This document shows, piece by piece, positions 13,843 through 16,543 of a stretch of DNA of 38,984 nucleotides (positions are counted from its first letter, which is position 1; each line of letters opens with the position of its first letter). Under the pieces are notes generated by a model, which was given only the letters and a program-made list of their open reading frames with translations, was not told the origin of the DNA and made no database searches. Origin of the DNA: a virus. The position numbers and the translations under genes are program-made. The stretch spans positions 1 through 38,984 of the IMG/VR virus record IMGVR_UViG_3300011128_000246, one strand, 5' to 3'.

Positions 13843-14337
13843 TCACCCCGCCAACGGCATAGCTGCCGCCATTTGTTCTACTTGATCGGTTGTTAAATCA
13901 GGCCAGTATTTACTAGCCACGTATTCCGCTAAGCCCTTAAAAACGTCTTGAAAGGCTGATTCGTCCATGCTCTCGAAACTCAGCGAAGTCGGTACGCGAT
14001 ACATGCAGTGCATGCCGTCAAGCACGATTGCTATTTCGTGGCAGCCAATGCCTGATTCGATTTGTAGACGCTTCAATGCGCTGTGTGCGTCCATACCCTG
14101 AAAGGCATCTATGTTCTCGACCACCATTGTTCCGAACACATGCGCCAAACCGTGAAAGGCCGGGTTGCGTGGCTTTTTGAACTCGGCAAAAATAATGTCG
14201 TTCAGGTGGTAGCCTTTTGACTTTAGGCGTGCGCCGGTTAGCTCATCTGCTGCGACAAAGGCTGCGCGTTCATGGCCGTTTATGGTGGCCTTGACCAAGC
14301 GTAGGGCGTGGCGTTCTGCTTGGGTGCGTTTTTTCAT
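13843..14337 (-). CDS. DUF1367-like nin-region protein
   Basis: 164 aa. The middle motif FAEFKKPRNPAFHGLAHVF and later YRVPTSLSFESMDESAFQDVF, then YVASKYWPDL, follow the pattern of DUF1367 and related phage proteins found beside recombination nucleases. The biochemical role is unknown; association with recombination is inferred from neighbours. It overlaps the methyltransferase stop by four bases. Confidence 0.65.
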   Translation of the reverse strand: MKKRTQAERHALRLVKATINGHERAAFVAADELTGARLKSKGYHLNDIIFAEFKKPRNPAFHGLAHVFGTMVVENIDAFQGMDAHSALKRLQIESGIGCHEIAIVLDGMHCMYRVPTSLSFESMDESAFQDVFKGLAEYVASKYWPDLTTDQVEQMAAAMPLAG

Positions 14338-15158
14338 GCTGATGCGTCCATGTATGCGCCTATGAACTCTGCCGCTACTTGCGGGACGATGGCATTGCCG
14401 TAGGCGCGCAGTTGGCCCATCCTTCCGGGTATCCCATTAGATCCGCTACAAACGAAGGGTTGAGGCGCTGCCTCCCAGCAACCGTTCCACCTAATCGATT
14501 CTTCCCGCCCCACTCGTCGAGCCTCCCCGATGAATGAGAACTCCCTGCGGTGGGGGAAGGCAGCAACCGCATTATGTGTTCTTCCAGTCTCACCCCGCGC
14601 GGGTGATCTCGACGCTTCTCTAGCGCCTCCCCGACTACCGCCCCTTTCCAGTCTGTTGCTGTTGGCGTCGGCAACAAACCAGAGCCTCGCTCGACGGTGA
14701 CTTGCTCCGATGGCGTGAGCCGGAACAACCAACGCCCCGAAGGCGTAACCTTGGTTCTCCATGTTGCTGGCGGCCCTATCAACCCATTCAGGCGCGTTTG
14801 CAACCTGCTCACCAAAGACAACATTAGGACTCCGCTTATTGATGAGCCTGAACCAACTAGGCCACAAGTCTCTATTGCCGCCAAAACCTTCGCGCTTTCC
14901 TGCGACACTGAAATCCTGGCAGGGGCAGCTCCCTGTCCAAACATGTCTATCGTCTGGCCAGCCCGCCAATCTGAGCGCGTAGGACCACCCGCCAATTCCT
15001 GCGAAAAAGTGACATTGCGTATAACCTCGAAGGTCGGCGGGTTCCACGTCCTCGATGCTTCTTTCATCAACGTCGCCATCAGCAATCAATCCTTCTCTGA
15101 TCAGGTTACGAAGCCATTCCGCGCAGTACGGCTCCCATTCGTTGTAATAGACGCTCAC
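14334..15158 (-). CDS. C5-cytosine DNA methyltransferase
   Basis: 274 aa. Motif I is F51-FAGIGG-W (SAM binding); motif IV is GSCPCQDFS with the catalytic Cys at residue 80; motif VI is FGEQV (residues 115-119), a variant of ENV; motif VIII is SHRRARLWFV (about 153-162); motif X is YGNAIVPQVA near the C-terminus. The target recognition stretch between VIII and X is short, so specificity is unclear. No restriction enzyme partner is nearby, so it probably protects phage DNA. A second long ORF in the +1 frame is embedded in it (14375-15085). Confidence 0.92.
   Translation of the reverse strand: MSVYYNEWEPYCAEWLRNLIREGLIADGDVDERSIEDVEPADLRGYTQCHFFAGIGGWSYALRLAGWPDDRHVWTGSCPCQDFSVAGKREGFGGNRDLWPSWFRLINKRSPNVVFGEQVANAPEWVDRAASNMENQGYAFGALVVPAHAIGASHRRARLWFVADANSNRLERGGSRGGAREASRSPARGETGRTHNAVAAFPHRREFSFIGEARRVGREESIRWNGCWEAAPQPFVCSGSNGIPGRMGQLRAYGNAIVPQVAAEFIGAYMDASA
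14375..15085 (-). CDS. Overprinted ORF inside the C5 methyltransferase gene
   Basis: 236 codons in the +1 frame of the methyltransferase, same strand, starting TTG 15085 with AGAAGG 5 bases upstream (ATG 15079 is an alternative). Unlike ordinary shadow frames it reads like a known phage family as I recall it: GQGAAPARISVSQESAK, then TPSGRWLFRLTPSE, GLLPTPTATDWKGA, LLPSPTAG and the ending LNPSFVADLMGYPEGW...MPSSRK. Such PTPTA.../LMGFPxGW proteins are seen next to phage C5 methyltransferases. It may be a true overlapping gene, or the family may be a database artefact of methyltransferase shadow frames. The function is unknown. Confidence 0.4.
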   Translation of the reverse strand: MLMATLMKEASRTWNPPTFEVIRNVTFSQELAGGPTRSDWRAGQTIDMFGQGAAPARISVSQESAKVLAAIETCGLVGSGSSISGVLMLSLVSRLQTRLNGLIGPPATWRTKVTPSGRWLFRLTPSEQVTVERGSGLLPTPTATDWKGAVVGEALEKRRDHPRGVRLEEHIMRLLPSPTAGSSHSSGRLDEWGGKNRLGGTVAGRQRLNPSFVADLMGYPEGWANCAPTAMPSSRK

Positions 15159-15370
15159 CTCAACAACTCCTTAGCCGCCTCTAACTGCCCTCTGGCGGTT
15201 GTGGGCCTGCCTGCGTGGATCTTGTGTAGCTCGGCTAGAACCTTTGCGGCTACCTCGGGGTCGTGTTTCTTAATCAAGCTATGAAATATCACTTCGCGGT
15301 TTGCCTTGTCTTTTTGATCCAGCATGAGTTGAACGCAGCTTGATACGCTGGATAGGTCATAGGTGGGCAT
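15155..15370 (-). CDS. Small hypothetical protein upstream of the methyltransferase
   Basis: 71 aa from ATG 15370 (a longer open frame reaches 15403). Helical and charged (QLMLDQKDKANREVIFHSL; EVAAKVLAELHKIHAGR). It overlaps the HTH gene upstream by 14 bases and the methyltransferase start by four. I recognise no family. Confidence 0.6.
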   Translation of the reverse strand: MPTYDLSSVSSCVQLMLDQKDKANREVIFHSLIKKHDPEVAAKVLAELHKIHAGRPTTARGQLEAAKELLR

Positions 15371-15736: not shown

Positions 15737-15878
15737 TTCCACCTTCCTTACTCGGCAATGGCCGCTTGCCCGCCAATGCAAAATGAACGTCTATGACTAT
15801 CTGACCGCTTGGTGGTGTTGGGCGGTTGTCTCGGCATGTCTTGACGACTCTGCGCGGATATTTTTGCTTGCCCTTCAT
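15729..15878 (-). CDS. Small basic protein between methyltransferase and next gene
   Basis: 49 aa. Its ATG overlaps the adenine-type methyltransferase stop (ATGA) and its TAA overlaps the next ATG, so it fills an otherwise unexplained 138-base gap. The N-terminus is basic (MKGKQKYPRRVVKTCRDNR). Tight spacing supports a real gene; no family is recognised. Confidence 0.5.
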   Translation of the reverse strand: MKGKQKYPRRVVKTCRDNRPTPPSGQIVIDVHFALAGKRPLPSKEGGND

Positions 15879-16543
15879 GGGAACATCCTTTGTTGGCGTT
15901 GGGCGTTCTCTATACGCTCGCAGGCTATGTCGAAATATTTAGGCTCGATTTCGATGCCGATAAACTTTCGGCCTAGATTCATGCAGGCTACGCCTGTGGT
16001 GCCGCTTCCCATGAAGGGGTCGAGGATTTGCCGTGGCTTCGGATACGCCTCTAAAACCTTTTCTAGCAAAAGAACGGGCTTTTGCGTTGGGTGTTCTCTC
16101 GTTTTTTCTTTCCCTATTAGGCCGTTATATTCAACGGTGATTTTTTTTACAGATTTCCTGTCGCTATTCGTCCAAGCTAACTCGCAATCTCCAAAAGTCG
16201 GCATGGTGTTAAGCTTGTCCCATACAACCCAGTGCGTTCCTGCTGGAAGCATGTCCGCGAAAAAGTTGCCGCCAAAAATTAACGCAAACCCACTTTTCTC
16301 GATCATCAAGTCGAAAACTTTTTTAGGTGGGCGCTCTCGGTCCCAGGCATCGTCCTCAAAGCGGCGTCTAGCGATAGGTGCCCCAAAGCCCCCAAAGCCC
16401 TCAAAGCCCTCAAAGCCCTTGTCGCGCTTCACGCCATAAGGAGGATCAGTAACCACCGCATCAACCTTATCCAGCGTCGGCAATATCTCAAGGCAATTAC
16501 CGAGGTACAGCGTGGCGTTTCCTATCACGACTGACTCAACCAT
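15875..16543 (-). CDS. Beta-class DNA methyltransferase (N6-adenine or N4-cytosine)
   Basis: 222 aa. Motif IV DPPYG at residues 33-37 comes before motif I DPFMGSGTTGVAC near residue 175, the beta-class order used by N6-adenine and N4-cytosine enzymes. EHPTQKPVLLLEKVL (motif X region) and GIEIEPKYFDIACERI (motif II/III) are typical. Residues 43-54 are a Gly-Phe-Glu/Gly tandem repeat encoded by four 9-base units. With the C5 enzyme it gives the phage two modification activities; no cognate nuclease is seen. Confidence 0.9.
   Translation of the reverse strand: MVESVVIGNATLYLGNCLEILPTLDKVDAVVTDPPYGVKRDKGFEGFEGFGGFGAPIARRRFEDDAWDRERPPKKVFDLMIEKSGFALIFGGNFFADMLPAGTHWVVWDKLNTMPTFGDCELAWTNSDRKSVKKITVEYNGLIGKEKTREHPTQKPVLLLEKVLEAYPKPRQILDPFMGSGTTGVACMNLGRKFIGIEIEPKYFDIACERIENAQRQQRMFP
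16383..16418 (-). repeat. Four 9-bp tandem repeats within the methyltransferase gene
   Basis: On the plus strand [C/T]CAAAGCCC is repeated four times without gaps. On the coding strand this gives GFE GFE GFG GFG. Because the unit is 9 bases, gain or loss keeps the frame and changes the length of a loop just after the DPPY motif. Confidence 0.8.

Follow-up and report, generated by a model that had tools for sequence, protein, structure and literature searches.

A +1-frame gene nested in a phage C5 cytosine methyltransferase gene: evidence for dual coding and a probable two-polypeptide enzyme

Introduction

Does a long open reading frame (ORF) in the +1 frame of a phage C5 cytosine methyltransferase (MTase) gene encode a protein of its own, or is it a shadow of the gene that contains it? 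The question arose from an IMG/VR virus record of 38,984 bases (the window, that is, the whole stretch analysed). An earlier note, made from the letters alone, drew attention to such an ORF and held that either phages keep a dual-coded MTase locus or a protein family in databases is an artefact.

C5 MTases need motifs I–X and a recognition region between motifs VIII and IX. Two-polypeptide enzymes are known among them. Lee, Kam and Shaw are said to have reported in 1995 that the small-subunit gene of M.EcoHK31I lies inside the large one in another frame, both being needed for activity; M.EaeI is a further two-polypeptide C5 MTase.

In M.EcoHK31I, motifs I–VIII and X are carried by one polypeptide and motif IX by the other, and the predicted recognition domain is placed in the large subunit (PMC3404938). 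M.AquI is split in the variable region, its small subunit holding motifs IX–X (PMC3404938). Mycobacteriophage methylases can also hide an out-of-frame HNH endonuclease of the ShiLan type (PMC11855218). In the open literature, outside which most subscription journals lie, no published description of overlapping genes in phage cytosine methyltransferases was found.

The locus and its neighbourhood

The product of the MTase frame is called alpha here and that of the +1 frame beta; both reading frames lie on the minus strand (Table 1). The 236-codon ORF described in the earlier note is real: read from a TTG start behind an AGAAGG sequence, it occupies 14375–15085 (-) and yields 236 aa, and the peptides quoted from it are present in the product. 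Judged from the sequence, the ATG at 15079 is an equally plausible start. Searches of Pfam and NCBIfam with the +1 product gave no match.

Table 1. Features of the C5 MTase locus in the window (positions are those of the whole stretch).
Feature	Position	Strand	Details
Alpha, C5-cytosine methyltransferase frame	14334..15158	-	274 aa, GTG start; PF00145 1.1e-17, phrog_363 1.2e-74
Alpha motif I, HFFAGIGGWS	14982..15011	-	conserved in the A4 alignment
Alpha motif IV, catalytic PCQ, GSCPCQDFSVAGK	14895..14933	-	C80, Q81 invariant in A4
Alpha motif VI region, VVFGEQVA	14799..14822	-	E117, Q118 invariant in A4
Alpha motif VIII, GASHRRARLWFVA	14670..14708	-	R156, R158 invariant in A4
Alpha stretch between motifs VIII and X	14418..14669	-	mostly predicted unstructured; without motif IX
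Alpha motif X, QLRAYGNAIVPQVAAEFI	14361..14414	-	A4 consensus
AGAAGG, Shine–Dalgarno-like, for beta	15091..15096	-	5 nt before TTG, 11 nt before ATG
Beta, nested +1-frame gene	14375..15079	-	234 aa from ATG at 15079; phrog_1008 3e-27
Beta N-terminal tail	14843..15079	-	open, unconstrained; predicted disordered, pLDDT near 50; fourfold identity near expectation
Beta folded core (predicted), helix and two strands, SxxLQxSLxxRLxARLxxxGSTLYxLTWKxxxTPSGRxIxxLRAS	14702..14836	-	pLDDT 77–91 over most of its length; synonymous constraint 0.54–0.72
Beta LPTPTATDWKG block, candidate part of the recognition region	14639..14680	-	from sequence
Beta variable modules LLPSPTAG and GRLDEWGGKNRLGG	14486..14566	-	from sequence
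Beta motif IX, RLNPSFVADLMGYPEGW	14417..14467	-	aligned by HHalign (E 4.8e-5) with the in-frame motif IX of actinophage MTases; fourfold identity 0.84

Upstream, the gene cluster holds a second MTase, of N4/N6 type (PF01555; 15875–16543, -), on the strand of the C5 MTase; NinB (phrog_319) and DUF968 genes lie downstream. Neighbouring ORFs tested with PADLOC and Pfam gave matches to the N4/N6 MTase, DUF968, NinB and HTH_39. Because no restriction enzyme was recognised among them, although one of a novel kind may be present, the MTase is probably an orphan that acts on phage DNA. Long antisense ORFs also run opposite the C5 MTase (14697–15284, +, 195 codons; no Pfam or PHROG match) and opposite the N4/N6 MTase (15783–16439, +, 218 codons); both are probably due to chance.

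Openness of the +1 frame

The family patterns quoted in the earlier note are images of MTase motifs read one base on (LPTPTAT from VADANSN; LMGYPEGW from NGIPGRM), and a null model is therefore needed. Synonymous codons were shuffled within each gene, which preserves both the MTase protein and its codon usage. The unbiased set was gathered with MTase queries only from IMG/VR and GTDB genomes; it retained 133 MTases less than 75% identical to each other (GC 39–68%) from Pseudomonadota, Nitrospira, Acidobacteria, Leptospiraceae, Aquimarina, Desulfovibrio and others. In the window alone, the tested stretch contains a single +1 stop, the ORF's own, vs 2.7 expected (p 0.155, not significant), so the claim of dual coding rests on comparative data.

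Those data are clear. The 133 MTases contain 40 +1 stops against 458 expected from the shuffles, and 102 genes have none in the tested stretch where about 5.5 would be expected. Most of the 40 stops sit outside the core, which is free of them in 132 genes; a core stop, the sign of an artefact named in the earlier note, thus occurs in 1 of 133 relatives. Stops in the +2 frame are not depleted (1260 vs 1197 expected), and 216 neighbouring genes of the same loci, used as controls, show 2169 +1 stops vs 2183 expected (ratio 0.99). A beta HMM built from five proteins scored the real +1 frames at a median of 191 bits vs 64 for the shuffles, and every gene (133/133) lay above all of its own shuffles. 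Some beta-seeded loci seemed to have stops in the MTase frame, but these proved to be normal terminators.

Selection on both frames

Selection was measured at fourfold-degenerate sites as third-base identity between pairs that share the same fourfold-degenerate codon family. Identity is 0.29–0.37 over MTase columns 0–99 (expectation about 0.27), 0.44–0.76 at columns 100–168, 0.53–0.84 at columns 230–269 and 0.28 at the end; most blocks of the +1 core reach 0.6–0.84. At columns 190–199 and 240–249, the third MTase position is conserved more strongly than the first, and beta residues more strongly than alpha residues; at columns 190–199, the WPTPTAR blocks of beta are better conserved than the alpha residues they overlap.

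Close pairs give the same direction. Across 37 independent close pairs, third-position differences outnumber those at first positions 4.77-fold in the N-terminus, where the frames do not overlap, and 1.23-fold in the core. The core has a dNN/dNS of 0.15 and a dSN/dSS of 0.28 (control genes: 0.57 and 1.38), with an NS rate of 16.5 and an NN rate of 2.5, and the beta tail (codons 45–98) has a dSN/dSS of 0.98. Since both core ratios are low relative to the control genes and the tail stands at 0.98, the amino acids of beta are under purifying selection in the core, while the N-terminal tail shows little.

The checks proposed in the earlier note thus fall on one side: all +1 homologues examined sit in the +1 frame of a C5 MTase, and the MTase frame shows a strong drop in synonymous change across the +1 core, a drop that is missing outside the core. 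With 40 +1 stops vs 458 and a core dSN/dSS of 0.28, the dual-coded locus is supported, and the suspicion that the database family is a shadow-frame artefact is refuted by the comparative tests.

Start signals of beta

Across the family, +1 stops vanish around alignment column 36. A +1 ATG stands at column 35 in 64% of genes, owing to the use of GAT for Asp, although GAC is more common (Fisher 1.7e-15), and a Shine–Dalgarno (SD)-like sequence lies upstream in 46 of the 85 genes with this ATG vs 1 of 48 without it (Fisher p 6e-11). An ATG with an SD-like sequence follows the last +1 stop in 97 of 133 genes; the shuffles give 24, and 35 at most. A clear start of this kind is absent in about a quarter of class-1 genes, the class to which the 133 belong. 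Because these signals are enriched, and located where the +1 stops vanish, the sequence points to independent initiation of beta. The RNA fold of the start region is not unusual (z 0.45), and an Rfam scan of the locus gave no match.

Motifs and predicted folds

The earlier note called the MTase frame a complete C5 methyltransferase. Motifs I, IV, VI, VIII and X are indeed present; completeness did not hold, as motif IX and a predicted folded domain between motifs VIII and X are lacking. Motif IX was found in the alpha frame of none of the 133 class-1 relatives. In the AlphaFold model of alpha, residues 1–170 and 250–273 mostly exceed pLDDT 90, and residues 186–249, between motifs VIII and X, fall below 50 and are modelled as unstructured, so that the fold breaks off after motif VIII and picks up at X. 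The best Foldseek match of alpha in the PDB is M.HhaI (E 8e-10). A single-chain C5 MTase such as M.HhaI or Dcm carries motifs I–X in one polypeptide; alpha does not, and it is predicted to have no folded recognition domain between motifs VIII and X.

Motif IX lies in beta, with the consensus LNPxxxxxLMGYPxxW. The LNPSFVADLMGYPEGW segment is beta's sole significant profile match to actinophage MTases (HHalign E 4.8e-5); in actinophages, the matched segment shares its frame with motif X and corresponds to positions 272–321 of PF00145, the motif IX end of that profile. Modelled alone, beta gives a weak AlphaFold model (pLDDT 62, pTM 0.32). The pLDDT rises to 76–91 in residues 80–130 (a helix and two strands) and in the LNPSFVADLMGYPEGW segment, both of which coincide with constrained stretches. 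The RLDEWGGxxN module of beta is also present in Microcystis and Paracoccus phages.

Other homology searches with beta yielded little. Foldseek with the low-confidence beta model returned nothing significant and no C5 MTase small domain; a PDB sequence search with the beta profile was likewise without a significant match, and one with a motif-IX-only profile found no C5 MTase. Pfam searches on 119 beta proteins gave only single chance matches.

Relatives and other alpha classes

A tblastn search with beta against 50,697 phage records found 40 records, mostly annotated as methylase, and a search with a beta-core consensus reached 228 phage records and 16 plasmids. The consensus query and the actinophage query are author-written sequences, and only their matches count as evidence. 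In 80 of 80 IMG/VR loci found by beta motif, an MTase match lies in the -1 frame relative to beta.

Enterobacterial prophages supply a second, divergent alpha class (L296 and 80 viral loci), in which 4 +1 stops stand against 106 expected and fourfold identity over motif IX is 0.96. A third class, seeded from a Paenibacillus plasmid, has 29 vs 75 expected. Actinophage MTases are overall not depleted (96 vs 114 expected). Their +1 hairpin block SETFPTSGMTxNGVAYELP is constrained (0.54–0.80); among L280, L282 and L397–L423, the +1 ORF with LPTPT blocks stops before motif IX, and motif IX lies in the alpha frame in 21 of 31 actinophages and in the +1 frame in 0 of 31. In one actinophage locus (L402), the LPTPT blocks carry on in the main frame. 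In these sequences, at least two large alpha classes have the nested arrangement as their norm, a third keeps it in part, and actinophages show a variant form.

Several individual loci depart from these patterns. In L335 and L384, alpha continues into the frame of beta and closes with motif IX (LMGWPIGW, LMGFPIGW), which may reflect a natural fusion, a recent frameshift or an assembly error. In L286 (Pseudomonas phage PACT201), matches to alpha and beta are spread over all three frames, which looks like an interrupted or rearranged gene. In most of a group of divergent C5 MTase loci (L391–L396; GITFSRWRQESIKALGNSMVPQVVYEIF), the +1 frame again holds motif IX (LNPLFVxEMMGF), which suggests that the nested arrangement reaches beyond the classes tested. 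Among 295 genomes of a single family searched for loci like that of EcoHK31I, 24 had beta matches, and no restriction–modification system was identified; the divergent beta-positive genomes inspected among the 24 include two copies of the second alpha class.

Database records reflect the overlap unevenly. The families of beta (phrog_1008) and alpha (phrog_363) are separate entries, both titled "DNA methyltransferase", and the entries seen state neither nesting nor a subunit role. In PMG1 (NC_016765) and FoX4 (NC_055839), beta alone is annotated, under the name "DNA methyltransferase"; in PhiXhv-28 (PV754127), both frames bear that name. The "Mte8-like protein" of Escherichia phages K1G, K1H and K1ind1 is beta, annotated inside a "C-specific methylase" gene; no evidence of function or selection is attached to these records, and a search of the literature for "Mte8" found no discussion of the protein.

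Comparison with known systems

By description, the locus resembles M.EcoHK31I (YGGCCR): alpha has motifs I–VIII and X without IX, and beta has IX. The nesting of the small-subunit gene in the large one in another frame is observed here and reportedly holds for M.EcoHK31I itself. There are also differences. M.EcoHK31I is a restriction–modification enzyme of one E. coli strain, whereas here a phage gene, probably an orphan, belongs to a large multi-phylum family; the partner restriction enzyme, none being recognised here, is a property of the M.EcoHK31I system and not of the enzyme type. The recognition domain of M.EcoHK31I is predicted in the large subunit, whereas alpha has no predicted folded domain there.

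M.AquI is similar in forming one C5 MTase from two polypeptides, but its division differs from the nested, motif-IX-only split seen here. Phages of the ShiLan type share a second protein out of frame within a methylase gene; their HNH endonuclease is, however, a mobile insertion. Beta is no insertion, has no HNH match and no match in Pfam, and is present in every class-1 homologue tested, and an out-of-frame HNH insertion was rejected as an account of it.

Proposed explanation and its alternatives

Both frames are under selection as coding sequence, alpha lacks motif IX and beta carries it, and beta has start signals of its own. Very probably, the locus encodes a two-polypeptide C5 MTase of the M.EcoHK31I type, composed of alpha and the nested beta. 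Alpha (frame 0) would be the AdoMet-binding, catalytic large domain with motifs I–VIII and X. Beta would be translated from its own internal +1 start, overlapping alpha by about 700 nt; its disordered tail would be followed by a core of helix and hairpin, by LPTPTAxD blocks and by motif IX. It would dock on alpha and supply the small domain, namely motif IX and the target-recognition region, so that either protein alone would be an incomplete enzyme; the pair would methylate phage DNA and may thereby protect it from host restriction. It is most likely, we infer, that beta supplies the DNA-recognition part that alpha lacks, although the predicted recognition domain of M.EcoHK31I is placed in its large subunit (PMC3404938). 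Also weighing against the two-polypeptide explanation are the weak model of beta alone, its Foldseek search without a C5 MTase small domain, the motif-IX-only profile that did not recover C5 MTases from the PDB, and the quarter or so of class-1 genes in which a clear ATG with an SD-like sequence is missing. The earlier note had put no name to the product, and the likely motif-IX/recognition role of beta is added here.

Two alternatives would deny that a second protein exists, and both are highly improbable. In one, the MTase protein and its codon usage alone force an open, conserved-looking +1 frame; many +1 motifs are indeed frame-shifted images of MTase motifs, and shuffled MTases still reach about 64 bits against the +1 HMM. 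But real +1 frames beat all of their own shuffles in 133 of 133 genes, stops are depleted (40 vs 458) where control genes show no depletion, and +1 residues are conserved beyond MTase residues at columns 190–199 and 240–249, with a dSN/dSS of 0.28. The other would attribute the constraint to RNA structure or a DNA site, with which the conservation of synonymous sites across hundreds of bases agrees; against it, the constraint follows +1 codon periodicity and spares beta-silent changes (NS 16.5, NN 2.5), stops are depleted in +1 and not in +2, and the locus has no match in Rfam.

Reading of the +1 frame as a fusion, by ribosomal frameshifting from alpha instead of from its own start, is very unlikely, although the frames overlap completely, alpha runs into the beta frame in L335 and L384, and the LPTPT blocks change frame in some actinophages. 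The beta start shows an excess of ATG codons with an SD-like sequence (97/133 vs 24), the SD-like sequence co-occurs with the column-35 ATG (Fisher p 6e-11), with +1 stops vanishing just downstream, and a late fusion in alpha needs no fully open +1 frame. Somewhat less remote, yet still unlikely, is a real +1 protein that is no MTase subunit but an unrelated overprinted phage protein, for example an inhibitor of host restriction or a regulator. Most of beta has no detectable homologue, and its fold is unlike the known C5 small domain, as such a protein would have it; yet beta has motif IX at precisely the place where it is missing from alpha, and in actinophages the motif switches frame and is present in one frame only. 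An MTase frame also accompanies beta in 80 of 80 beta-seeded loci, as for an obligate partner, although nesting alone predicts the same.

Significance

Nested and split C5 MTases have precedent. If the two-polypeptide explanation is true, many "complete" DNA methyltransferase genes of phages and bacteria would be one subunit of two made from the same DNA, of which annotation pipelines often retain one frame or name both alike. This would account for orphan phage MTases, cloned or predicted, that may seem inactive or without a recognition domain, and it hints at where target specificity may be encoded. With rather more confidence than doubt, nested two-subunit enzymes can be proposed as the form that a very large proportion of cytosine MTases in phages and prophages normally take, the second subunit giving exchangeable target recognition and motif IX switching frames (in the alpha frame in actinophages, in +1 elsewhere). 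Among conserved nested genes on one strand in dsDNA phages, this pair would then be one of the most widespread known. The locus family is a widespread and statistically strong case of long same-strand overlap, useful for studying how two proteins evolve on one sequence.
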